Of a stretch of DNA of 64,000 bases, positions 8,279 through 63,178 are shown in pieces. The notes beneath the pieces are model-generated. The model did no database searches and had not been told where the DNA came from. It worked only from the letters and a program-made list of their open reading frames with translations. Within the stretch, counting starts at the first letter, position 1; each line of letters opens with the position of its first letter. The position numbers were made by a program, and so were the translations under genes. This DNA is from Clavulina sp. PMI_390 (lineage: Eukaryota; Basidiomycota; Agaricomycetes; Cantharellales; Hydnaceae): contig WIDE01000002.1 in assembly GCA_015039315.1 (NCBI GenBank), positions 755,391-819,390 of the forward strand, given 5' to 3'.

Positions 8279-10470
8279 ATGGCCGCCGACGCCTTGGTAG
8301 TCGCATCTCCTCGCCGAATATGCGCTCATTGTCGAAGAATTAAGAAGGTGGGTCTCCTCAAAGGGGGAGTTCACTCTTAGTCTTCTGAGCTGAGCAGTTG
8401 CTTCTGGTCTCTAGAAGTGCGATGGCGGCTCGCCTTGCCGACGTTGCTTACAACGCAAGGTTCCATGTGTGTCATCTGACAAGACCCCTCAATCGACCAC
8501 CTTCAATGCCTCCATCGAGCTTCTCCTTGTCGCACTCTCGGACGCTTACGACAATAACATCATGCCTGAGAAGCTCGTTGACAAAATCCGCGCTGTGAAC
8601 CTCACTGGAGCTCATGACCACCACCACTCCGCCGCCCCGTCGGAGCTCCCTGTATTTCCAGTGCCAGATGGTAGTGGACCATTTCAAGGAGTGAATCGCT
8701 TCCTGTGCCCGCGCCGTCAGATTTGCTCAACCGAGACCCAAACGGGTTACTTTCCCGTGGCTCCCCGCGACGAGCTCGATTCAATGTGGGACGAGGAAGA
8801 TCCAGAAGCGGTTGTCGCTTCTCCTGCGAACCGACTGAAGCTGTAGGTCCCCCTGCCTTCCTTGTCATTTCGCCTTACGTGAGCCCCAATTTTGCTGACG
8901 CTAGGTTCTTGTCAGCATTCTTATTTTCCTATCCCACCGACTATATTGCTCGTTTACCATGGATCTCAGTCGATTTTTTGACATGCTCCAGCGCCCCCCT
9001 GACGACCCGAAGAGCATTCACCCATCTCTACTATATGCTATCTACGTCGTGGCTTGTGCCATCTCCGGCGGCCGTGCAGCCGAGCAGTGCGATTATTATT
9101 GCATTCGCGCTCGTGCTGAAATGACAAACTCGCTCCGTGATCTTGACCGGCTCACCCACTTCCTATGGGCAAGTGTGGTCCTGGGATCGTACGGCACGAA
9201 CTGCGGACGGATCACCGAATCCTACGTGTATCTTAGCACTGCTGCACAGTTCGCGGTTGCTCTGAATCTCAGACCAAGCACGACATTGCGTGGTCGACCG
9301 CTTCGCCCTGACGAATCATCCATTCTACTGCCGCCTTCCACCGACCCAGAGGAAGATCTCGACAGATACAACCTCTCCCGTGCCCTATATATGGCTGAGA
9401 GGGCTATATCGATGGTGACAGGGTTACCGACCGTGATTTCGGATCAGCCTGACGACCTGGCGGCTGCCCACCCAGCCCCAACTGTCGCAAACGGAGCATT
9501 AAATGTAAAGCCCCTCATGGTGGACAAGCTGTCTTTTTTCCCTGCCCTCTGACCACGTGTCTTTGTAGGAAATCCACCAAGAACTTGCGGACACTATACG
9601 GAGCGACCCCTCACCGTCCTACAAGTTCCTCAGGCTTTATGATCGCATCGAACGGCTGGCGCTCAGAACGAACGGTCAGTAGGTTTTATATGAACCTAGT
9701 TTCTATCTCTATGCCCAAATCATGACTGCGCTTCTTGACTGAGACCTAAATTTGAAGGAAACATCAAAAGCGCTACAGACCACGTGGAGTTTTCTGTCCT
9801 GGAAGCTCTCCTCAATGTCTCTAGCAGCACTCTACCCCAACTCTCGGATGTAACAGGTCTCGAGACAGATGAGGCATCTACCCTTGTCAATCCCCACCTC
9901 ATCATCTCCTGTACCACGTATCACGCGTGTATCTTGTTGCTGAATGGTATGACCATTTACGGGAAAGCAAATCCCAAGTCAAAGGCATTGCAGTTCCACG
10001 CAGCAAAAACACTGGCGGAGTTGTTCGGCCAGATCCGTGGTGCTAAAGGCACGCCCAAAGTTAGGAGCTTCATTGTACCAGCCGTAAGTGTTCATCTCTC
10101 TCTCTTTTGCAGCACAGACACCCTGTCTAATCGCTTCGATATACATAGCTCCATGCCCTGAATGCTGTTCGCTTCTTCACCGCCTACCTACGACAACCCG
10201 ACGTCCAGCGCGATAACCGAGTGCTTGCGACCTGCTACCGCTCGCTTACAATCATAACAGACTACCTGCTCGAAGTGTATGGACACTTCCCATCCTGGGG
10301 TATGTTCTCTGCTATTCCCAACTTAATCCTTGGGCTGATCTGACCTATCGTTTCTAGGCGCCCTTGTGGGATCCCTCAAAAATCTCGTCCTTGACGATCC
10401 ACTTGCAACCTTTCCAACGCCACCTTCCTCCAGAGCCTCGGCGTCTGGCAGCTCTCCGGGCAGTCACTGA
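8279..10470 (+). CDS. Zn(2)-Cys(6) fungal transcription factor
   Basis: Nuclear DNA-binding regulator of unknown target. The start gives MAADALVVASPRRICAHCRR; an intron splits the zinc cluster after KK and the next exon supplies KCDGGSPCRRCLQRKVPC, so the full set is CX2CX6CX5CX2CX6C, the fungal binuclear cluster. After several introns, the segment around 8959-9552 (RITESYVYLSTAAQFAVALN, then MAERAISMVTGLPTVI) resembles the fungal transcription-factor middle homology region. The last exon begins GALVGSLKNLVLDD and ends in a Ser/Pro-rich tail with TGA at 10468-10470. It faces Ku80 tail to tail and has no obvious pathway partner here. Confidence 0.85.
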
Positions 10471-10653: not shown

Positions 10654-13600
10654 TCAACTTTCAATGAACTGGTTGCAATGGTCCAGAATGCAGGATCTTG
10701 TCAACGAGTGTGCCACCATGAGTATACCACGACAAGACTTACCCGCTGAGTTCCACGTCTCGAAACATCTGAATCTTGCTGTTCTCCATCGTGGATAAGC
10801 GAGAGTGACATCCCTTTAGCCTGTATCAACTTCCAGAAATCGGCGTTTGGAGCATTTGCTTGCGTAAGTGCTGCCTTGAACCGCTTCATGAATCTATTCA
10901 TGTATGAGAAACTTTGCACAGAGAGAGCTACGAGTGGGGAATGACAACTCACGAATTCCATTCTTCCACTTCATCTTCCTGAGACCCAATGGAAGGATGC
11001 ACTCAGCAGGGTCCATGACTCAGCTGAGAACGACATTCAGATCTTACCTCAACAGCTGTCCTTCGCATCGCTTTCATGCATTCAATTGCCTCTTCGTAGC
11101 GCGAGTCACCAAATGAATCCGCGATAATTTCGGGGATTACCTGTCCCATGCCGACTACTGCCTGCGTGACGAGATCGCCTCGCTCAAGGTTCTGCTGGAA
11201 GTCGGAAAGTGGTGTCGCGTTTCCAATAATACGGCTTCCTCGGCCCCGTGGACGGGCACTTAGAACCTCAGGTTTCTTCAAAGGTTGGACAATAGGACTC
11301 TGGTCGATGTCCATCTTCTCGCCTTCTGCCTCGTCTTCATCTTCTGTCACTTCGCCGTCATCTGATTCGACCGATCCAGAAGGTTTTACTCGGCGCTTCT
11401 TGGGACTCTTGGCTGGCGATGATGATGGGACTGCTCCTGCGACTGGCTTCTTCGGGCTCGCTGATAACGGTGCGGGATTCCAGTCTGCCCATGTTGACTC
11501 AACTGCATCCCCACCAAGCAATTCAGCCAAAGAGAGCGGAACATTTGCATCTGTCCCCAGGGCCTCGGGGTTCGCTTTCTTTTTGCGGAATGCCACACGT
11601 GGAGGGACTGTCATGAGGAGGTCAGTATTCTGGACAACATACAACTTGACCTGTCGAAATAACTCGTACCGAGGCTCACGTTCAGTAGCTCCTTACACTT
11701 TTCGGCGGCCTTCAGAGACCGGGTTATCACCCGTTTGGGGCGTTCGAAATATTTCGTGACCATTGGGTGGGGGAGAGGAACTGGCTCGGCCTGGAGATCG
11801 TTTGTAGTCGCAGCATGGAATATCGCTTCCTTCATCCTGTGATGGGCAGGATGCACAGCGTCAGTTGGCTCGTACCAAGAGGTTCGCACCCTACACAACA
11901 TAATATTCAGTATATGCGAAGAAAGATATTGTGCGATGGAGGACGACACACCCGTCATCGTCCTTGGGGCCTGCGTCCTCGAGGCTACACGCTAGCACGA
12001 GCTCATCCATAGCATCTTGCATTTCCGTGGTAGGTATAGAGCTATGGGTGGTCTTGGGCTTCCCCGCCTTATCTTTGATGATGTCGAGCGAGGGAAAGTT
12101 GTACTGTCGTAGGTCTTCAGCAAAGGGCATCTAAGCGACACGACTTAGTAGGCCTTTCGGTTTAATAAAAAATGTGATTGATGATACCTTTACGAAGACC
12201 ATATAGTCGACTTTTTCCAGGGATCTCGCAATGGCGATGCCCATCTTTGGGTCTGAACCATCTCTCGATACATAGCGCACAATAGCCATCATTGGATCCG
12301 AAACTTCATCGCCGTCATCGCCTTTGCGAGTGAAGTTCACCATGGCTTGGACAAGTGAGCTGAACGCGACTTGCGATTTAGGTGTGCCCTTGTCGCCAAA
12401 GATATAATAAACCTCGCCCATACTCCAGTCACGGACAAACTAAGAGAACATTATAAGAGAGGGTGGGATGCAGCGGCATAGCGCATGACTTACGGAGGAT
12501 TGATACGCAAAACCGATGATCTCCATGCCCTTGAGGGTGGGCAACTTGTCAGAAGAGTCCTCTATCGGAACCCAAGTGAGACCATATTTGTATGCCTTGA
12601 CAAGCTCATCCTTCTCAAGCACTGGTAGGTCAAGCATAATGTCGCTAATTTCCTCCTTTGTCAACTTGGCTTCATCTGATTCATTAACGTCATCGTCATC
12701 GAGTCCTCCAGTTTTGCTAGAGCGCGCTTTTGCTGCGGCGGCCTCGCGTTCCCTATCTTGTGCTGCCTCATAGACCGAGCGAAGGAGATACTGGGGACGA
12801 ATCTCAAGTGGGACATATTCGCTGAGCGGGCTTGCCTGGTTTTCGTCTGTCGCTGCTTGGGACCCGGCTGGCTGAGTTGACTGAGAGGGATGTTCTGCCT
12901 CGCTAGCACTTTCACCTTTTCGAGGTTGTCGACGAAGAAATTTTTTCAGAGGAACGGGAGACAGCGTTGATGTGGCTTTGGCCATCTGGATATTGATCGC
13001 AATCGAATCATCTGGCCGGTTGTGATAGTCACCAATGGTTAGAGTGTTGCCCATGAGTGTCGATTTCGTGCTCTTGATTTCTGGTTCACGAACAACTTCA
13101 ATGGCCTGGGCGCATGTGCCAACCTTGCCATAACATGCGTCGCTGGTATTGTGGGTAATTTTGTTCGCAAATTCATGGTAAATTTCTTCATTTTGGCGCT
13201 GGAAAGGCAATGAAAATCTGGACAGTGACAGAAACTCTGAAAAACTACCTTGATGTTGGATTTATCCGCTTCCTCGTACCCATAGTCGGGATCATCAAAA
13301 TCCACGCCGCTATGGTAAGATCAGCCTTCGAATGAGAAGCAGGTGCATGTGATCGGACATACACTATAGTGAGCTCAACCTTTGACTCATTTATTTTCGC
13401 TAGCGTCGCTTCTATGTCATTGTCTTCAAGCTCCATGGGAGACTCGCCATCGGTGATAAGTATCGCCTTTCGCGTCCATGATGGCTTGTTAGAGAGGTGG
13501 CTGTTTTGGATGTACAGCGCCACGATCAGGCCATCAAGGACTAAACAGGGCGTGAGCGAGCTTATTCAGGAAGAATGGGATAATTAAGCACGAACAGTCA

Positions 13601-45252: not shown

Positions 45253-46713
45253 TCACACAACCTCAGCGATTTGGCTATCATAAATGACTTTCAAGGTGGG
45301 GCGGTTCTTCGCAAGCCGGGCTACAGCAGCATCCACCTGACGGCACTCCCATTCATGATTCCAAATTTGTTCTACCTCTTCAAATCCCTCGCTGTTGTCC
45401 GGCTGTTCTGGTTTTGGATTCGGTATGATGACAAGCTTATGGAGGAGCGGGAGGACCACCTGGACCTCATCAGGGTTATCGGCATCCCACGGACCAAGCC
45501 AGTTTAGGTGGTGCAAATGCTCCACGACATCACAAGTAGGAGAAAATGACAGTTCGTGTATTGTTCCATAGATGCCGTAGCAATGCACGAACTCCATTAT
45601 GTTGATTGCAACGCCGCACATGGCCCACATCATCTCTCGGACGATTAGACCACCGGTTGAGTCATGAGCCAAATAGTCAAATTCAAGAGGGCAATCAACG
45701 AATGCGAATCTGGAGAGGGCATGAATCCCGCTCATCGCTTGGTTCAGAAAAAGGCGCGGCCATCTGTTCTCCCGGTAGGGTATGCAAGAAGACACTCGAT
45801 GCCACTCAGTTTGTTCCAGCCCGCGGAGCGTTAGCTGCGACAATTTTGGTGTTCGGAGGTTGACTGAGAACTGGGGGAAATTGGTGTCGAGAATCTCCAG
45901 CTGAGACAACTCGACGCGAGTGATCTCATCCCAGGACTGAGGCAAATCACCCCGCGCAAATACGACAGAGAGGTGTTGGAGTAGGGGGAATCTGCTCAAG
46001 GACTCGATCAGCCGATCCCACCACAATGAATCGGGAAAGACAACCTCAAGGTGGCAAAGAGATGGGGCAATGGGGAAGGGATAGAAATCAAGGGGCTTGA
46101 TATACATGAATTTTAGGGTTCTGAGAGACTCGCAGGTGAGGCCATAGTCATTGATGTCATCCTCAAGAACAGGGGACGGTGCTCTCGCGAGAGTCATTGG
46201 TCCGGTGTATGTGTTTTGGAGTGATAAATACTCGAGAAATTCGAGCTTCGCGCTAGAAATCTTCTCCCACAGGTTGCGGGCATCGAGATGCGTGCATTTG
46301 AGGGTGAGCTCTCGGCATCGGGACAGGTGAGGCACGAATGAACGGATGGCTTCCCACCAGTGCTGTCGTCGATCCTTGATGGATGGCACCAGAGGTGCTA
46401 TGGAAGGGAAGCAGGTGTTCTCAATGAGGATCTCGATGGGGGCAGAGCGTGATCTCTCGAGAAAAAGTTGTGCTCGTTCAGCTATCCTCTGTGCAGATTC
46501 TCGGAGAACGAAGCTCTCTTCGGGCCCATAATATACTCTTGTCCAGAGAGATGGAGTGGAAATGGCAACTGAGCGCCAGTACGAGCACACAGAGGTGATA
46601 GTGAGGAGTGTCTGAAAGACTTGGGAAGTGGACGACTCGGACGTCAGGATAAGCAACTCAAAGACTCCCGAAAGGAGTTCGGCAGGGAGCCGCTGTATAT
46701 CTAGGCGATGCAT
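45253..46713 (-). CDS. F-box-like protein, tandem copy 1
   Basis: Intronless, 486 residues. The N-terminal F-box reads RLPAELLSGVFELL, TLLTITSVCSYWRSVA and PSLWTRVYYG, which would bind Skp1 in an SCF ubiquitin ligase. The rest holds irregular leucine-rich repeats (ELTLKCTHLDARNLW, LEFLEYLSLQN, LCHLEVVFP, LQHLSVVFA, QLEILDTNFP, LSQLTLRGLE) that probably bind a substrate. Very similar to the gene at 47317-48768. Agaricomycetes carry large families of such genes. No substrate can be proposed. Confidence 0.85.
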   Translation of the reverse strand: MHRLDIQRLPAELLSGVFELLILTSESSTSQVFQTLLTITSVCSYWRSVAISTPSLWTRVYYGPEESFVLRESAQRIAERAQLFLERSRSAPIEILIENTCFPSIAPLVPSIKDRRQHWWEAIRSFVPHLSRCRELTLKCTHLDARNLWEKISSAKLEFLEYLSLQNTYTGPMTLARAPSPVLEDDINDYGLTCESLRTLKFMYIKPLDFYPFPIAPSLCHLEVVFPDSLWWDRLIESLSRFPLLQHLSVVFARGDLPQSWDEITRVELSQLEILDTNFPQFSVNLRTPKLSQLTLRGLEQTEWHRVSSCIPYRENRWPRLFLNQAMSGIHALSRFAFVDCPLEFDYLAHDSTGGLIVREMMWAMCGVAINIMEFVHCYGIYGTIHELSFSPTCDVVEHLHHLNWLGPWDADNPDEVQVVLPLLHKLVIIPNPKPEQPDNSEGFEEVEQIWNHEWECRQVDAAVARLAKNRPTLKVIYDSQIAEVV

Positions 46714-47316
46714 AGCTTTGAGATTGGGCGATATGTATCCCTTAAATCATAGACCTGGAATGGAAAAAAGGCCGAAGCAGTGTCCAGTCTGATTAGGTAT
46801 GAGAAAGTGAGTCCCGTGACTCGAAAATGGAATCGGAGAACCGTGCAGTGCCATAATTTCATCCCTATGTTCAGGTCTATACTTATGTCTGTCTAATAAT
46901 TACCCCTGGATTTGATACTGTGATTCGTATCACAGTATCAGCTAAGTAACTATCCCTTGGTTTGCGTTGGTCTCCACGCCTGGCATGTTGTTGACACTCC
47001 CGGACTAATCTTCGTGACTGCCTAATTCGCCCAGGAGGCGCTATTTTGATCAAGGAGTTTCAATAGTAATGAGCGCTTCCGTGGTCATTCGAGCGAACGC
47101 ATGATATTTCAGTGTGGTCTCCTAGTTCAGGATGCTCAAAGTGTTGACGGCTCTGGGGCCCCTCATAACTCATTGCGTCAAAATCACGTACCTCACTCAT
47201 TCGTACAACCATGAAGCTTTTGGCGTCCTTGTGCCATAGAGCGCTCCACGGCAAGAGCCGGAATTATCGGAATGGTCCAGACATAAATCAGAAATGGGAA
47301 CCCACACTATACATTG
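46714..47316. other. Spacer between F-box paralogues, part of the duplicated unit
   Basis: No gene. Bases 46789-46842 match 48835-48890 (shared block gtgagtcccgtgactcgaa), showing the duplication took the promoter region as well as the gene. The rest is unremarkable. Confidence 0.5.
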
Positions 47317-48768
47317 TCAGTCATTCTGGTTGTCGTAGATTACTTTCAAAGTGGGTCGGTACTGAGCAAGCCGGGCCACAGCATTATCCACTTGTCGGCG
47401 CTCCCATTCTTGGTGCCGAAATTCTTCTAGCTCTCCGCCTTTCTCAACGTTCGCTGGCGGCTCTTTTCTTGGTTTTGGTACAATAACGAGCTCGCGGAGA
47501 AGAGGCAGGAGCTCATTGGTCGCATCATTAGCCTCGCTATCCCATGGCCATGAGCCAAGGGCGTGTGGGTGGCTTCGGTGCTCCTCCATATCAGAAATGG
47601 GGGAACGGGACAGCTCATGGAGTATTCCATAGATGCCATCGCAGCATAGGAATTCCACTGTGTTGATGGCAACATTGTGCAGTGATGCCATCATATGCTG
47701 GAGGACCAAAGCACCAGTCACATCACGAGTTCGATTCTTGTATTCCAGTTCGCAGTGACTGAGTGTGAGTTTCGAGAGATTGTGGATTCCACTCATCTCC
47801 GGGTCCAGAGAAGGGTGTGGCCATCTTTTTTCTAGACACGGCTCGCTGTGAAGCACGTCATCCCATTCCTCTAAACCGTGGAGCTTTAATTGCGATAATC
47901 TTGGTGTTCGGAGGTTGACAGAGAACTGGGGGAAGTTTGTGTTGAGACTCGCAAGGTGAGATAGCTCGATGCGGGTAGTTTCATCCCAAGATGATGGCAG
48001 ACTTCCCCATACAGATATGACACAAAGGTGTTGGAGGAAGGGGAACTCCCTTAGAGCATTGACAAGAGCGTCCCACCACGTCGGAACGCAAAATACAACC
48101 TCGAGGTGGCAAAGGGATGGGGCAATAGGGAAGGGGTTGAATTTAATGGGTGTGCTATGCCAAAACACCAGAGTTTTGAGAGACTTGCAGGTTAAGCGGT
48201 CATCACTAGTTTCATCCTCGAAGACAGGGGAGGGTACCCCCGTGTCAGTCATTGGATGATTGTATCTGTCTTTGAACGATAAAGACTCAAGCAGCCCGAG
48301 GTTCGCTTTGGAAAGTCTTTCCCATAGCGACCTCGAATCAACATACGTGCAGTTTAGGGTGAGCTCTCGACATCGCGACAGTTGGGATATGAATGGACGG
48401 ATGGCAATCCACAGCCGCTGGTCACGGATGGTTGGCACCAGAGGGGCTATGGAAGGGAAAAGTGTGTTCTCTGCGAGGATTTCGATAGGTAGGGAGCGCG
48501 ATCTCTCCAGGAAAACTCGCGCCCGCTTAGATATTTTCCGCGCTGACCTCTGAGAAACTAGACTCTTTAGAGGTCCATAATACACTCTTGTCCAAAGTGA
48601 TGGAGATGAGATAGCGAGTGAGCGCCAGTACGAGCACACAGAGGTGATGGCAAGGAGTGTATGATGGACTTCCGGTATGGAAGTTGACCCAACGAGCAAC
48701 TCAAAGACTCCCAGAAGGAGTTCGGGAGGGAGCCGACGATGCATGGATCTGAGATTAAGGGACATCAT
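47317..48768 (-). CDS. F-box-like protein, tandem copy 2
   Basis: Intronless, 483 residues, paralogue of 45253-46713. F-box segment RRLPPELLLGVFELLVG, TLLAITSVCSYWRSLAIS, PSLWTRVYYG. The repeats align throughout with copy 1 (RCRELTLNCTYVDSRSLWE, NTNFPQFSVNLRTPRLSQL). Most differences lie in the C-terminal repeats, where substrate choice would be set. The first Met of the long frame is at 48766; a second Met nine codons later (MHRRLPPE) matches the start of copy 1. Confidence 0.85.
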   Translation of the reverse strand: MMSLNLRSMHRRLPPELLLGVFELLVGSTSIPEVHHTLLAITSVCSYWRSLAISSPSLWTRVYYGPLKSLVSQRSARKISKRARVFLERSRSLPIEILAENTLFPSIAPLVPTIRDQRLWIAIRPFISQLSRCRELTLNCTYVDSRSLWERLSKANLGLLESLSFKDRYNHPMTDTGVPSPVFEDETSDDRLTCKSLKTLVFWHSTPIKFNPFPIAPSLCHLEVVFCVPTWWDALVNALREFPFLQHLCVISVWGSLPSSWDETTRIELSHLASLNTNFPQFSVNLRTPRLSQLKLHGLEEWDDVLHSEPCLEKRWPHPSLDPEMSGIHNLSKLTLSHCELEYKNRTRDVTGALVLQHMMASLHNVAINTVEFLCCDGIYGILHELSRSPISDMEEHRSHPHALGSWPWDSEANDATNELLPLLRELVIVPKPRKEPPANVEKGGELEEFRHQEWERRQVDNAVARLAQYRPTLKVIYDNQND

Positions 48769-48960
48769 TCTTCACTGACATGTATGGGAGGGGGAACTTT
48801 GTCGGAAGGACTTCGCTCAAAACGCCTTTTGAGGCTGATTAGATATGGGAGAGTGTGAGTCCCGTGACTCGAACGGATCCGGAGAACTCCGTTCGGCAGG
48901 TTCGGTGCCTGCGCACATCACAGCTTTGCTCTTCTCATCACCCATCGAGCACAGTGAACG

Positions 48961-55937: not shown

Positions 55938-58900
55938 ATGACCTACACCCCAATGCCCCCAATCCAGGCGAACCCAATCTCGCCCCGGTCCCAATACCCG
56001 AGAAATGCCTCCATCGTTCTCATCGGCATGCGCGGAGGTAATGTCATCTGGTCTCCTTTGTCGTTTTAGCACCCCCTAACCACCTTTATCGCTGCCCTTT
56101 CCGATCATTCCTGTACTCTTTGGGGGGGAACACACGAACTATAATAACCAAGTTGGCAAACGGTCTCTCGCATCCCTGACCGCCAAGGCTCTCGGCTGGG
56201 ATGCTCTTTTTGCCGACCAGATATTCGCCGATCTTGCCAAACAGGATGTCCTCTCCTATGTCAAGATGCATGGCTGGGACGACTTTCGCGCCAAGGAAGC
56301 ACAAATCATTGCCTGGCTGCTGTCCCACCATCCCACAAACAAAGTTATCGCCTGCGGCGGCGGCGTCGTTGAGCGGGAAGACTCCCGACGACTTCTCAGA
56401 GAATTTGGTCGTACCAAAGGACCTGTCATCCATGTCATGAGAGAGAAAGATAAAGTTCTCAGCTTCCTGGAGAGTAATGCCAACGTCTACCCTTCGTACA
56501 ATCGCTCTACCGCTGGTGAGCGATGGGACGCCCGAGAAGAATTCTACTTTGAGTGCTCGAGCCACGAATTCTTTGCCCTCTCCGTCGATATGCCTCCTCG
56601 ATCACGCTCGCAATCTTCCTCGTCCTCATCCACCCCCACATCAAATGTCCCCCTCAACCCTAAGCCGAGCTCCTCCGGCGAACCATCCTCGTCTTCGAGT
56701 CATGGTGGGCTTTCAGAGCTCACAACCTTGGCACTGAAACCTGTCGAAGCCTCGTTCCTCCGTCTCCTCCGCTTTATTGTCGGCCTAAGCACTAACCATC
56801 TTCCCCTCACTCCATCACCAACTTACCTTCCCTCCGTCTCCACTCTCCCCAATCCCCCTCGCTCCTACATGCTCTCGCTCACGTTTGCAGACGTCTCGCA
56901 GGCTTTGCCCTTGCTAGACGAGATTAGCATCGGCCTCGATTGTTGGGAAATCCGCGTGGACTGGTTGAGAAGCGTTCATCACACCTTTATCGCTCAGCAG
57001 ATCGCTCTGCTCAGGCGGTACAGCGAGCTGCCCATTCGGCTGACGACGCGCACTGTCGGCCAAGGCGGGCGCTTCCCCGACTTTCAAATACCTCCACGAA
57101 CCACTCATCCGTATCACAATCAGCCCCATACCTTTGACGAAGTGACGATCGATGCTCAGCGCCAGCGCCAGCTCTTTGACCTCGTCGTCCTGGCGTTTAA
57201 GCTCGGGTGCGAGTACGTCGATATCGAGCTCACTTGGCCAATTGCAATGCTTCAAGCGCTCATTTCCCATCCGCTCCGCGGGCACACGCACATCATCGCC
57301 TCGTACCATGACACTATCGGACGGCCCTGGACCGGGCGCGAGATGCGGGAGATGTACGAGCGTGGGATGCAGTTGGGGGTCGATCTAGTGGAGCTGATTG
57401 GCACGGCGAGGGTCAGCGAGGACAATATTGCACTAAGGACCTTCAAGGAGAGCATTGGTGCAGTAGGCGGTCTGTCGGGCGTTGCCCCCGGTGGGAGGAT
57501 CCCCCTAATCGCGTTCAATATGGGGCCAGAGGTAAGCCAGAGAGCTCACTTCTTTTATCGCTCCACGGTTTTACTGATCGCGTGGGGCAACCCATCACCA
57601 CCACTCCTGCTCTTTTTCTTATTTTGGCATCGGAACTCCGTCAAACTCAACCGAATCCATACATAGGGAAAGCTCTCGCGGATATCGAACCAGACGCTCA
57701 CGGCTCTTTCCCATCCAGCCCTCCCAAGCGTGGCCGCCCCAGGGCAAATTTCCTACGCGGAAACACAATCGACACTATACCTTATCGGGTCCCTCCCCGC
57801 ACAGACCTACTACCTCTTCGGATCGCCCATCGGACACTCACTCTCCCCACTTTTGCATCGCACGGCGTTCCGTGCCCTGTCGCTTCCCCACACCTTTACA
57901 TCCATCACCCTCGGGTTCGGTTATTCTCATCCCAGTAACCCACACATTAACGAGGCTGGCGGTGGCGGGGCAGTAGGGAACGAAGCGGAGGACATGGAAC
58001 GCCTGAGAGAAGTTGTCAGTCGGCCAGACTTTGGAGGCGCCGCGGTGACGATTCCCCTCAAGGTGCCCGCGGTGAACCTGTGCTCGCGCGTGTCCCATCA
58101 CGCACGCGTCATCGGTGCTGTCAACACCCTTATTCCGATCAATACGCCAGGTTTGCCGCCCTCAATGTCCCGCTCCAACTCGAATCCAGGACTGGGCGGA
58201 AGTGCAAACTCGTCTGGTCAGGGTAGCAGCATGAGGCCGCTTCCGGGGCTGTACGGCGAGAACACGGACTGGCGAGGGATCAAAACTTGCATTGAGAGGC
58301 GGATCACACCTGTCAACGCGCCAACTGCCCGGACCACTGCGCTCGTGCTTGGTGCTGGCGGTACGTCGCGTGCAGCGATCTATGCACTGCATCAGCTCGG
58401 TGTCGCCAACATCCTTGTGTGGAACCGATCCCTGGATAAGGCTGAAAAGCTCGTCGAGGAGCTAGGTCGGCGAATTAGGGATGTGGAGGGCGACGGGTTC
58501 TTGAGATTGGGTGTACTGAGGGGAGGATTGGACGCTGAGAACGTGAGGAGGGCATTTGAGCCATTGGCCCCACCCACGATCATCATTTCAACGATCCCAG
58601 CGTCAGTGCACTTGCCCCCTCAGCCTTCTGGACCTATGGACGTAGAGGGGTACGACCAACGGAACCGCGACTACGATCGCATTGGTACCATACCTGATAT
58701 TGGCCTGCGCCGGGAGCTCCTTGACCTCTCTCCTGCAGGTGGTGTCGCCGTCGAACTCGCTTATCAGCCACGAATGACCCCACTCCTCGCACTCGTTGAG
58801 CAAGTGAATGCCTTCCCTATGCCACTCATGGGTAGCAGGCCCGCGAGCCCTGGTGCGATCGTCGCGTCCAATGCACCGGTGCCTTCCTCTTCATCGACGA

Positions 58901-59193
58901 GATTACCCGTGAAACATTCACGAACCTCATCGCCTCCTAAGGTCCCCTCACCCCCGCCACATTCCACATCCTCACCTACAACTCCACCCAAATCCGACTC
59001 GAACGCGCACATGATGCGCATCTTGGGTGGAAAGACCTCTGCGCCCTGGCTAGCTGTTGAAGGCGTCGAGATCTTGCTCGAGCAAGGGTACGAGCAGGTA
59101 CGCCTCTGGACAGCGCGGAGAGCTCCACAAGCTCCAATCCGGAGGGAGGTCATCCGCGAGTTTGAGAGGAGGGTGCGCGAAGGGTTCGCATGA
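55938..59193 (+). CDS. Quinate-repressor-like protein (shikimate kinase-dehydroquinase-shikimate dehydrogenase fusion)
   Basis: Three-exon gene (55938-56037, 56153-57531, 57667-59193) of 1001 residues that mimics the last three domains of the AROM polypeptide. Domain 1 is shikimate-kinase-like: GMRGVGKRSLAS at the P-loop (Lys followed by Arg, not Ser/Thr), HGWDDFRAKE and VIACGGGVVE. A Ser-rich linker follows. Domain 2 is dehydroquinase-like: DCWEIRVDWL, IIASYHDTIGRP with His, but VDLVELIGTAR carries Glu (57391) where the Schiff-base Lys should be; PLIAFNMG then GKLSRISN. Domain 3 is shikimate-dehydrogenase-like: LFGSPIGHSLSPLLH, GAAVTIPLK, GAVNTL and YGENTDWRG, with two Ser/Pro-rich insertions. 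In ascomycetes the quinate repressors QutR and Qa-1S have exactly this design and are not enzymes. It lies next to ring-cleavage genes, which fits regulation of aromatic catabolism. A true but unusual enzyme cannot be wholly excluded for domain 3. Confidence 0.82.
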
Positions 59194-59696
59194 ACTAGCT
59201 CTCTTACTTTCTTTTTTATTCTTTTATGGCTGGCTTTCATGGCGATAGGGAGTCACCTAATACCGTGGTTGTCATCCCCATGTTGTGTTTCTGTGGCTCT
59301 AAGATCGTGACATCCTAGTCCATCAGAGCATCTATCTTATGTGTCCCCAACTCCTTGTACAAGTAGAGCATTTTGATAACAAAGCAATACCCCCTTGTCC
59401 CATACATTCGTTGTACCTGATAGGTATCTCATCTTTCGTAGTCATTTCACACTACGATCACAACAATGCCAAATGAAATGACATCAGTTCATCTCGCCAC
59501 ATATAAGCCTCGTCGTATACAAGTGATAAATTTGTCGATGGGCGTGAGTGGGGGAGGTAAAGTACAGATGAGTGTGTGGTAGAGAATGCTTGTTGACGAG
59601 AGATAGCGTAAAACCCAAGGATGACAGAGATAACGTAGATAGTGCAATCCATGACCTTGGATAACGTATGGGAGAGCCTCGGACGAGGGAAGAGGT
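59194..59696. other. Intergenic between convergent repressor-like and dioxygenase genes
   Basis: About 500 bases of 3' sequence. No gene seen. Confidence 0.45.
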
Positions 59697-61112
59697 CTAC
59701 TTTTTGGTTTCCGGCTCGAGCCCAGTGTTCAGCCAAGCATCTTCGAAGGACGCGCTCATATTCAGCGTCTATAAGTCGAGGAAACGGAAAGGGAGGATGA
59801 ATCGATAAGAGGTCCAAGCACGAGGAGGGAAAGTGATCTCACCATCGTAATGTAAGCGACAATACCCTGTTGCAAGACACCACCAAGCAAGTAAGTCTCG
59901 AAGGTGCTGTGATATCCATCGAGGTGAGCATCCCAGAAGATGTTGAGGGAGTCGTCCCAGTTGCGTGTGCGTCCGCGGTTGGGGAGGTTGGCGATGGGGT
60001 TGGTGTTGTACGGCCAGAGCTTGTCGACTGCCATGTTCAGGTCATCCTCAAAGAAGAACTGGCCAGTGTGTACTAGACGACCGCCAGAGTATGACCCATT
60101 CTGCAGAAGGGTCCACTCGGGATGCACCTTGACATGGACGTCTGCAGAGAAGGCGAAAAGAGGGAGATCAGAAATGTGCTTGGGCAAGGCGATGTTACGG
60201 AAATTGACATACGAGTTGCGCGCCCAGTGTAGTAACCTGGGAAGATACTTGTAAACGTCGAGACACCGTTCTTGTTTGTTGGCCATGCGCCTCGTCCAAA
60301 GGTCTCGTCAAACTTGGTCTTGGGGAAGGCAGTGAGGAGACCCTTGCGCTTCCCAGTGGATGCTGGTTGCTCATTAACGAGGTGCGCTGCGGCTTCCGGA
60401 TGACCAGAGTAGTGGCCAGTGGCATTGGCCTGCCAGATATCGACGAGGACGTCTGGGACGGGTTGGCAAGTCTCCACATCGAGAACACCAATGTTGTAAA
60501 TCTATGCACGGGTATGTCATTATATGGCAAATCAGATCTTCCGTGGACCGGGCAGAATGTGCAAGCGGGCGAGTCATGGGGTCAGACGTACAGTGAGGAG
60601 GCCAGGTTCATACTCTGCAATGTTTTGGCGAACTGGGTGCTCGAATCGTTCGTAATAAGGACCCGAGGTAACTTCGGGGGCTGTTGATCAATGAGGAACA
60701 GAACGGCGATGCTATCAGTGTCCGCAGAGAGATAGACACGTGCAGAGCGAGAAAAAAGGGGAAGGGACTTACTTAGCACACAAGTGTTGTTCCTGATCTT
60801 GGTTTCTTGAGCATCGGCGCACTCCATGAACTTTTGACCGGTCCCTTGCTCATACTCGTCCAAGAATAGATCGCTGGCGGTCAGGCTGCTTCCATCAGGG
60901 ACACCACCCATAACATGTTGGGCAAATGCGCGCTTTCTCTGGGCCTGGTAAGCTTCTGCTTCAGGTGCGCATGCCCAGGCAGCTTGCTGCAGATCCTGGT
61001 AGACACGGAACTGCTCAGTGGTCTTTGGCCGCTGATTGTTGTGAGCAGAGACGACGTGGAAAGAGGCAGAAGAGGCGGCGAGGGCCAGGAGAGTGGAAGA
61101 AGAGACGAGCAT
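59697..61112 (-). CDS. Secreted intradiol ring-cleavage dioxygenase
   Basis: Non-haem Fe(III) dioxygenase that opens catechol-type rings between the two hydroxyls. The start gives MLVSSSTLLALAASSASFHV, a signal peptide. The first exon carries a Cys-containing N-terminal part (QAAWACAPEAEAYQAQRKRA). Next come APEVTSGPYYERFEHPVRQN, TLIYNIGVLDVETCQPVPDV and VDIWQANATGHYSGHPEAAA, the intradiol core, then SIFPGYYTGRATHVHVKVHP, which holds the second Tyr and the two His ligands of iron; the first Tyr is in the GPYYER segment. Then GQFFFEDDLNMAV and LQQGIVAYITM; splicing the last intron adds TLNMSASFEDAWLNTGLEPE and a stop at 59697. Similar secreted forms are known in lignocellulose-decaying fungi. 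The true substrate is not known from sequence. Confidence 0.87.
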
Positions 61113-61353
61113 GGCGTCGAAGACTGGAGAGTCTGGGGTAAAGTGAGGGGAAGGATGAGGAGAGGATGGAGGTGCCTATAAGAGCACTTGAGGCCTTCCC
61201 CACAAATTCGCACGATATCGTTCTTCCGGTGGCAGTGTCCCCTTGTCGGATGGGCCAACATCCTTGTGGTCCTTAACTTAACATCCATCCTCCAGTAGAA
61301 TAAGGATCATTGGTACTACCGTCTGAGGCCCTCCCGGTTTGATCCTATCTCCC
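61113..61353. promoter_or_regulatory. Shared divergent promoter region, dioxygenase / muconate cyclase
   Basis: The starts of the dioxygenase (minus) and the muconate cyclase (plus) are only 241 bases apart and divergent, an arrangement that favours co-regulation. I cannot point to a repressor binding site. Confidence 0.5.
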
Positions 61354-63178
61354 ATGGCATCATCTGTGCGCTTCCAGCAGTCATTCCGCAACGTTTCTCA
61401 GAGTTTCCTGACGCTTGATCGCTCCATATCCAGGCACTAGACGTGGTCCCAGAGACCCTCTACATCATCACAGGTACATTAAACACTACTCCATAAGTGG
61501 ATGCGAACAGTAACGAGCCGGGACTTCAGGGAGCTTCAGTGCCATCTTCCTCTACATACTTGCTTTCAACACCCACACGCGGCAGCTCTCTGTTCTCTCT
61601 CAACACGATGCTTTTGGACCCCATCAGTGGCTAGTCCTGAATTCAAGGCTCGATCGTCTATACGCCACTAGCTGGGCATGGCCTCCGCATCTATACTCCT
61701 GGAAGGTCGTCGCCAGTCCAGATGACGTCCCAACACTCGAATTTATTAATGATGCGCCCATTAGTGAGTAATTCTATCCAATCCATGCTCACTCATTGGT
61801 ACTATTATGCTCATTTTATTTCTCTCTCAGGCGCAACATCATCTTACATCGCCCTTACCGACACTCATACATACTCCATTGGTGGACCGTCTGGAGAAGT
61901 TCACGCCTTACGCTCAGATGCTGGCTATGGAGATAAAGTGCAAGAAGTGCTCTATGTCTCTCCCGAGGAATTCAAGACAACAGATAAGACGAGGAAAGCA
62001 CTCGTAAGCCCTTCCCCGTACTTTGCACGATCCCCACAATTATTCATGGCCTTCTGTTCTAGAGGGAAGGGTCACACGGCATCGAGTTTACCAAGGATGG
62101 TTTAGCCTTCGTGCCTCATCTGTAAGACCTACTTCTGATGTGTCTCCTCGCTGGTGATATCACTGAATCCCACTTTATTACCTTAGTGGGACGAATTCCA
62201 TCTGGATCTATCAGCTCGATGCTGCTTCAGGGAAGCTCGACTTGCTCAGCGAGGTTCAAAGTATTAGAGAGCACGATGCTCCAAGGCATGCGCTTCCGCA
62301 TCCGAATGGGAGATACCTTTATGTGGTAAGTCCGATGGTCTGCTTGTAGCCTAAAATATTGCCTACTCTAACATCGCCGCCAGGTGACCGAGCACACCTC
62401 CTTCCTTGACGTATACGAGATCTCCAACAAAACGCTCCTTCACCGACAAGCAGCGAGCCTCATTCCGGCAGGTGAGTTTTCTCGTCTCTTAAAGCGCAAG
62501 ATCATATTTTCATCTGTCAAACGATTTCTCTCGTCTACTTTTACCTTCATAAACGTAGATCGATCACCCAGCGATTTCAGAGGAGATACCCTTCGCTTGT
62601 CGCGGCGTAGTGAATTCGAATCGCCAGGAGAAGAATCTCGGCCCCAGTTTCTATTTGCCACGACGCGCGGAAAGACAACGGCCACCAGAGGCTTCCTCTC
62701 AGCCCTCGAGCTGGACGCAGACGGATTGATCGTCACATCTTCTCTTTCCACTCCACACGAAGACGCCGGCAGCGATGCGCCCTTAGAGATGGCCATGGGT
62801 GATGTACCTGTTCCGCCATCCTTCCAAGCCATCCAACAACCCCTCCAACACGGGCCCTCGAAGATGGTACAGCCGACAAGCCTATGGGAAACCCCAACGA
62901 GCGGTGGTAAAGCCAATGCCATCTCGCTTGCGCCGTACTCACTTCCCTCCTTCTCTTTTGCGTCTACATCGCCTTCGGGCGAAGAAGTAGCGAGAGAAGG
63001 AGCGGTAGAGTGGCTTGTTCTGACTGATGATGAGCAAGGCTTTGTTTTCATTGTAGAGTGGGATAGTGCGAGTGGGCGGTTCGAGGAGGTGAGCCGCGTT
63101 AGCTTGGGGGCCGACGATCGGGCGGGGGAAGGGAGTGGAGAGAAGGTTATGGCGAGTCATGCCGTTTGGTTGGCGTAG
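61354..63178 (+). CDS. 3-carboxy-cis,cis-muconate cyclase (fungal beta-propeller type)
   Basis: Intracellular seven-bladed propeller enzyme that lactonises 3-carboxymuconate, the product of protocatechuate 3,4-cleavage, in the fungal beta-ketoadipate pathway. Short first exon: MASS, then an intron with a GTGCGC donor, then ALDVVPETLYIITG, joined to SFSAIFLYILAFNTHTRQLS. Further segments resemble Neurospora CMLE: GTNSIWIYQLDAASGKLDLL, DAPRHALPHPNGRYLYVVTE and TPTSGGKANAISLAP, ending VLTDDEQGFVFIVEWDSASG and MASHAVWLA. Insertions near 62570-62880 are Ser/Pro-rich. About six introns. Divergent from the dioxygenase with a shared promoter region. The family also holds bacterial-type lactonases, but the TPTSGG and DAPRH motifs point to CMLE. 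Confidence 0.85.

Follow-up and report, generated by a model that had tools for sequence, protein, structure and literature searches.

A 64,000-nucleotide stretch of the 39.4-Mb genome of Clavulina sp. PMI_390 (part of contig C112, hereafter the window) carries, side by side, genes for a QutR-like protein, for a secreted-type intradiol dioxygenase (IDO) and for a propeller protein of the carboxymuconate-cyclase type (CMLE). We propose, with a probability of about one half, that the QutR-like protein descends from the shikimate kinase (SK)-dehydroquinase (DHQase)-shikimate dehydrogenase (SDH) half of AROM and acts as a ligand-relieved repressor, probably helping to control IDO and CMLE. Its kinase-like and dehydroquinase-like domains have lost catalytic residues and kept those of the substrate pocket. 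In the mechanism that we infer, from ligand binding and repression to the partner itself, the protein would hold a Zn2Cys6 activator inactive, and the binding of an acid of the shikimate-pathway type (dehydroquinate, dehydroshikimate, quinate or shikimate) would relieve the repression. The gene adjoins, in some Agaricomycetes, what would be an older IDO-CMLE ring-cleavage pair, over which its control is probable, and candidate genes for the conversion of quinate to protocatechuate are placed elsewhere in the genome. The locus comprises the following features.

55938..59193, plus strand: QutR-like gene, exons 55938-56037, 56153-57531 and 57667-59193, 1001 residues
59697..61112, minus strand: IDO, secreted-type intradiol dioxygenase gene, five exons (61112-60773, 60680-60592, 60501-60213, 60141-59843 and 59768-59697), 362 residues, deposited as P0241
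61113..61353: IDO-CMLE intergenic stretch, 241 bp between the start codons, delimited from the sequence and the gene models
61354..63178, plus strand: CMLE, carboxymuconate-cyclase-type propeller gene, eight exons (61354-61365, 61434-61473, 61530-61763, 61831-62003, 62063-62121, 62187-62325, 62384-62471 and 62559-63178), 454 residues, deposited as P0121

A sequence-only reading of the window had placed a QutR/Qa-1S-like protein next to an intradiol dioxygenase and a cyclase, and this observation is borne out, as all three genes splice without stops at the coordinates it gave and the spliced models equal the deposited proteins, save that the deposited QutR-like protein P0001 starts five codons downstream (55953). 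The genes follow one another in the order QutR-like, IDO, CMLE, the first two tail to tail and the last two head to head, and the 241-bp gap between IDO and CMLE is a possible shared divergent promoter. The other flank of the QutR-like gene carries fragments of a minus-strand gene for C1-tetrahydrofolate synthase, at about 51.6-53.7 kb.

Pfam recognised SKI, DHquinase_I, Shikimate_dh_N, Shikimate_DH and SDH_C in the QutR-like protein, each over its cut-off, such that SK-like, type I DHQase-like and SDH-like domains follow one another as they do in AROM, the N-terminal half being absent, the arrangement that marks AROM-derived repressors. Repressors of this origin and with the same domain order govern the use of quinate, galacturonate and gallate in Aspergillus, according to PMC10512348 and PMC12610400. 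The AlphaFold2 model, built with 29 sequences (mean predicted local distance difference test score, pLDDT, of 77.2; predicted template modelling score, pTM, of 0.77; pLDDT below 50 at 214 of 996 residues), was best matched in the PDB by the SK-DHQase-SDH structures of AROM (7tbv and 7u5u, with target-normalised TM scores of 0.84-0.86). The matches listed by a protein search include other three-domain proteins, 38-57% identical, from Cantharellus, Mycena, Moniliophthora, Gymnopus, Bondarzewia and other genera. One QutR-like protein, P0018 of Mycena venus (1741 residues), is listed with helicase domains, one source calling it an ATP-dependent RNA helicase, and is either a fusion or a gene-model artefact.

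With residue roles and numbering taken from the bacterial enzymes, we compared 25 proteins of the QutR-like family (P0001-P0024 and P0026; the two-domain piece P0025 was excluded) with 23 AROM C-terminal halves and eight other three-domain proteins. In the kinase-like and dehydroquinase-like domains, the positions that bind substrate were conserved in 221 of 223 cells of the family, against 276 of 276 in the 31 AROM-side sequences, whereas the catalytic positions were conserved in only 47 of 99 family cells, against 122 of 122. The kinase LID Arg was retained in none of the 24 readable members, the P-loop Thr/Ser in 22 of 25 and the DHQase His in 7 of 25, and only 3 of 25 have both DHQase catalytic residues. 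Of 133 columns that hardly vary in AROM, none was less well retained in the family than the LID Arg, and the DHQase His ranked fourth from the bottom. In the Clavulina protein itself, Arg replaces the P-loop Thr, Tyr the LID Arg and Glu the DHQase Lys; the DHQase His is still present, as is the SDH Lys/Asp pair. Two of the three domains look like binding modules without catalysis, and the family pattern, with binding kept and catalysis lost, appears as it would in a sensor. With respect to the catalytic inactivity that serves as a working hypothesis for such repressors in PMC10512348, the family has lost the kinase-like and DHQase-like residues and retained those of the SDH-like domain.

In a tree of AROM and basidiomycete family proteins, the 25 QutR-like members form one clade (support 100/100) on a long stem (0.71), which under midpoint rooting joins the basidiomycete AROM group (95/95), and the eight other three-domain proteins are scattered among AROM. 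The single, fully supported clade speaks for our proposal. Clavulina has a separate AROM on contig C144 (about 368-376 kb), in whose C-terminal half the usual catalytic residues are intact, and a genome search found no second QutR-like gene.

We judged gene linkage in relatives indirectly, per listed match, from contigs of equal size or locus numbers within 10, using the best 120 of 254 (QutR-like), 205 and 343 matches, and excluding rows that name no species as well as species present in one list only. For the species with two rows (Marasmius fiardii for CMLE, Pseudohyphozyma for IDO), the row on the shared contig was taken; Rhodosporidiobolus nylandii, with contigs of different size, was counted as linked through locus numbers 61 and 62, and Ephemerocybe, Hypsizygus and Lentinula edodes, whose assemblies may be mixed, were scored as different. 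On this basis 25 of the 36 basidiomycetes present in both lists show linkage of IDO with CMLE, with locus numbers exactly one apart in nine, compared with about 1.3 (40-Mb genomes) or 2.6 (20-Mb genomes) expected from random placement, chance expectations being summed over all compared species. The linked species include mushrooms and Pucciniomycotina yeasts, with Sporobolomyces, Rhodosporidiobolus and Pseudohyphozyma among the linked genera. The two genes thus seem to form a pair that is common across basidiomycetes, on which no report was found among the titles and abstract openings listed by searches of open-licence papers.

In four of 14 listed species, namely Clavulina, Cantharellus, Bondarzewia and Gymnopus, the QutR-like gene is on one contig with IDO and/or CMLE. 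Counted by contigs of equal size, it accompanies IDO in 4 of 11 species (Clavulina, Cantharellus, Bondarzewia and Gymnopus androsaceus; 0.29 expected) and CMLE in 3 of 8 listed species (0.19 expected). All three proteins fall on an equal-sized contig in Cantharellus anzutake, and in Bondarzewia mesenterica the locus numbers are g2238 (IDO), g2239 (CMLE) and g2242 (QutR-like). The neighbourhood of the three genes is in excess of chance.

Candidate genes for the production of protocatechuate were found on contig C144, which also carries AROM, where a region of about 22 kb (392267-413627) forms a candidate quinate/shikimate-to-protocatechuate cluster with the following members.

392.3-395.1 kb (frames): Zn2Cys6 activator, PF00172 at 21.8 bits (cut-off 21) and PF04082 at 29.9 and 44.5 bits (cut-off 23)
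397.6-398.8 kb: SDH/quinate-dehydrogenase-like gene, PF08501 at 32.2 and 23.5 bits (cut-off 27)
about 410.4-411.5 kb: 3-dehydroshikimate-dehydratase-like gene, PF01261 at 45.7 bits
413 kb: CoA-transferase, PF01144 at 86.6 bits and PcaJ/ScoB at 77.4 bits (below 243.6)

The pathway genes are candidates because single exons miss the curated cut-offs: the dehydrogenase-like gene scores 23.7 bits with PF01488 (below 24.3) and 71.9 bits with the NCBIfam AROM-type SDH model (below 196), and the dehydratase-like gene reaches 78.7 bits over 54 residues with NCBIfam QuiC, far under the full-length cut-off. The PDB match of the latter, 5hmq, is annotated as a 4-hydroxyphenylpyruvate dioxygenase and is a bacterial QuiC fusion. 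The CoA-transferase could equally well be an ordinary 3-oxoacid CoA-transferase. A genome search with PF02627 gave two sub-threshold matches. A type II dehydroquinase (PF01220) was not found in the genome, a weak negative, since intron-broken genes escape the search; in Aspergillus niger, AROM has been suggested as a substitute upon deletion of the type II dehydroquinase gene (PMC12610400). One genome thus contains both the repressor-like gene and the quinate candidates, on different contigs.

Several observations weigh against the QutR-like protein as a repressor of its two neighbours, and they begin with its residues. The DHQase Lys is present in 18 of 25 members, both DHQase catalytic residues persist in three (P0009, P0010 and P0024), and the SDH-domain positions are intact in 141 of 148 family cells, so that the third, SDH-like domain could still be an enzyme. 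The QutR-like protein would then be a catabolic shikimate or quinate dehydrogenase, its other domains serving as a scaffold, that feeds the adjoining aromatic pathway, and the presence of the Lys/Asp pair in Clavulina agrees with such a role. We consider this unlikely, as the genome already has the stand-alone SDH/quinate-dehydrogenase-like gene on C144 in addition to AROM, the kinase LID Arg has disappeared from all 24 readable members and the DHQase His from 18 of 25, and the SDH Lys is itself lost in 2 of 24. The tree, moreover, comprises AROM and basidiomycete family proteins, and no ascomycete QutR, GaaX or TanX was recognisable among the best 120 of 254 matches to the QutR-like protein.

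Linkage of the QutR-like gene is also patchy. In 10 of the 14 listed species (Mycena vulgaris, M. maculata, M. epipterygia, M. alexandri, Mucidula mucida, Collybia nuda, Stygiomarasmius scandens, Collybiopsis confluens, Moniliophthora roreri and Paramarasmius palmivorus) it lies on a different contig from IDO and/or CMLE, some of these species may hold a further, unlisted copy of IDO or CMLE, and the three genes thus come out as neighbours in some relatives, among them Cantharellus anzutake and Bondarzewia mesenterica, and apart in others. Linkage between regulator and target has been argued to be unnecessary for such repressors (PMC12610400), and linkage is consequently not proof of control. 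It is conceivable, if rather improbable in our view, that IDO and CMLE are a true pair beside which the QutR-like gene stands by inherited gene order, without controlling them, and that it may instead control unlinked quinate genes. The unlinked species, the location of candidate quinate genes and an activator on C144, and the often unlinked targets described for A. niger in PMC12610400 all speak for this. It fits less well with contig sharing in two species of Cantharellales, one of Russulales and Gymnopus, where 0.2-0.3 would be expected, or with the Bondarzewia trio, which falls within five locus numbers.

The activator is the remaining difficulty for the repressor that we favour. In A. niger the activator gene adjoins the repressor gene in all four modules, as described in PMC10512348. 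No Zn2Cys6 activator was found beside the Clavulina QutR-like gene by Pfam scans (19 of 27 window frames of at least 190 residues, and 10 of 14 frames of at least 170 residues in the next 20 kb, from which a short or intron-broken gene could escape) or by a genome search with PF04082. The locus is therefore not classed as a module of the QutA-QutR type, and the repressor-like reading of the protein is only partly sustained: catalytic residues are lost and binding residues kept, and the activator is missing from its side. The closest Fungal_trans match, at 8905-9552 of the window (plus strand; PF04082 at 29.7 bits), is about 46 kb upstream of the QutR-like gene and is the only one on C112 among the genome matches listed, which comprise at least 50 at exon level; the Zn2Cys6 protein on C144 is a candidate partner by position only. 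As to regulatory sites, no QutA-type palindrome occurs in the window and no CGG-N(0-15)-CCG pair in the IDO-CMLE gap. A Zn2Cys6 regular expression found no match in the window, and because it also missed the C144 activator, used as a control, this was not counted as evidence. The GaaR-type element CCNCCAAT has seven scattered occurrences in the window.

Elsewhere in the window, two adjoining frames of about 490 residues at 45253-48771 (minus strand) each contain an F-box-like domain, and frames at 11003-13261 (minus strand) match Ku_PK_bind and the Ku beta-barrel and probably belong to a Ku80-type DNA-repair gene.

CMLE scores 74.8 bits against Pfam Lactonase (PF10282, cut-off 21.7), and a profile of 24 relatives finds the Neurospora crassa cyclase 1JOF first (E 3.3e-29) and YbhE next (3.8e-17). 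The active-site residues of the N. crassa enzyme, at 148, 196, 212 and 274, align with His158, Arg206, Glu222 and Arg285 of CMLE, all invariant in the 24 relatives. With the CMLE protein as query, no other locus was found in the genome at E 0.1; Lactonase loci on contigs C79 and C236 were set aside, since by eye they resemble 6-phosphogluconolactonase-type proteins.

IDO scores 24.4 bits against Pfam Dioxygenase_C, under the cut-off of 27.3, and the protein database assigns PF00775 to P0241; its best solved relatives in a PDB search, at E about 1e-21, are 6bdj and 5vg2, both intradiol dioxygenases. Intradiol dioxygenases bind iron through two Tyr and two His, and such a set appears in IDO, where Tyr174, His240 and His242 are invariant across the 120 listed relatives, and Tyr234 recurs in 119 of them and Tyr233 in 117, either of the last two fitting the ligand role. 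Genome-wide searches with PF00775 and PF04444 gave no match, despite the real IDO of the window, because intron-broken genes defeat such searches; further IDO-type genes were seen as weaker matches on contigs C106, C68 and C6. A hydrophobic N-terminal stretch is found in 114 of 118 full-length relatives by a crude hydropathy measure that fails to separate the Clavulina IDO from CMLE (1.8 and 2.4). From this typical leader and the family pattern IDO is likely secreted, although the same measure also flags CMLE.

The earlier proposal that the secreted dioxygenase makes the substrate of the cyclase comes out weaker than claimed, the protocatechuate dioxygenase of A. niger being non-secreted (PMC10406623), a point that also tells against our own proposal. 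IDO and CMLE may lie outside the protocatechuate branch, with the secreted IDO cleaving other catechols or hydroxyquinol-type compounds extracellularly, a tentative reading that is compatible with any of the others. Besides the A. niger enzyme, the hydrophobic leader of IDO, for what the crude measure is worth, and the cleavage of hydroxyquinol by TvHDX1 described for Trametes versicolor (PMC12915361) point this way, whereas the closer match of CMLE to the N. crassa cyclase than to the next solved lactonase, the invariance of its four active-site residues and the wide occurrence of the IDO-CMLE pair point to 3-carboxymuconate.

A broader proposition, which we advance as possible at somewhat less than even odds, is that basidiomycetes own a family of AROM-derived, ligand-relieved repressors, which in early agaricomycetes sits at the ring-cleavage step (secreted dioxygenase and cyclase) and not at the quinate step. 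If so, ring cleavage outside the cell would be under the control of a cytosolic sensor of shikimate-type acids, and the hydroxyquinol route described for white-rot fungi would be joined in basidiomycetes by a regulated branch through 3-carboxymuconate. AROM-derived repressors have been described from ascomycetes, and a basidiomycete branch in which the pocket is kept and catalysis lost would provide an independent test of the inducer-binding model, which the TanX authors themselves call highly speculative (PMC10512348). The IDO-CMLE pair is of interest in itself, regulator or not, since it points to a basidiomycete route of ring cleavage and lactonisation that bears on the processing of plant and lignin aromatics by mushrooms.

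Among known systems, AROM shares with the QutR-like protein the domain order and fold of its C-terminal half; the latter lacks the dehydroquinate synthase and 5-enolpyruvylshikimate-3-phosphate synthase halves, has lost catalytic residues and coexists with a separate AROM on C144. The N. crassa cyclase belongs to the same propeller family as CMLE, which keeps its active-site residues but has longer loops, SGGK in place of the SGGH motif and a secreted-type dioxygenase as its partner. QutR and QA-1S of Aspergillus and Neurospora likewise consist of the three domains of the AROM C-terminal half in a setting of aromatic-acid catabolism; the Clavulina gene, from a basidiomycete and a putative relative of theirs, instead adjoins ring-cleavage genes, and not a Zn2Cys6 activator or quinate genes. 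GaaX, the galacturonate repressor of A. niger, is AROM-derived with a model of relief by inducer, but serves another pathway, and several of its Pfam domains go unrecognised (PMC10512348), where all are recognised here. TanX, the gallic acid and tannin repressor of A. niger, is an AROM-like repressor tied to aromatic catabolism, whose deletion raises the expression of two ring-cleavage enzyme genes that are dispensable for growth on gallate; unlike the Clavulina gene it adjoins its activator gene TanR, and the induced genes are not described as its neighbours in the sections of PMC10512348 available. No report of a QutR-like protein in basidiomycetes was found among the titles and abstract openings listed by searches of open-licence papers, and we read the locus as a putative basidiomycete variant of repressors of the QutR, GaaX and TanX kind, with a predicted regulatory role.

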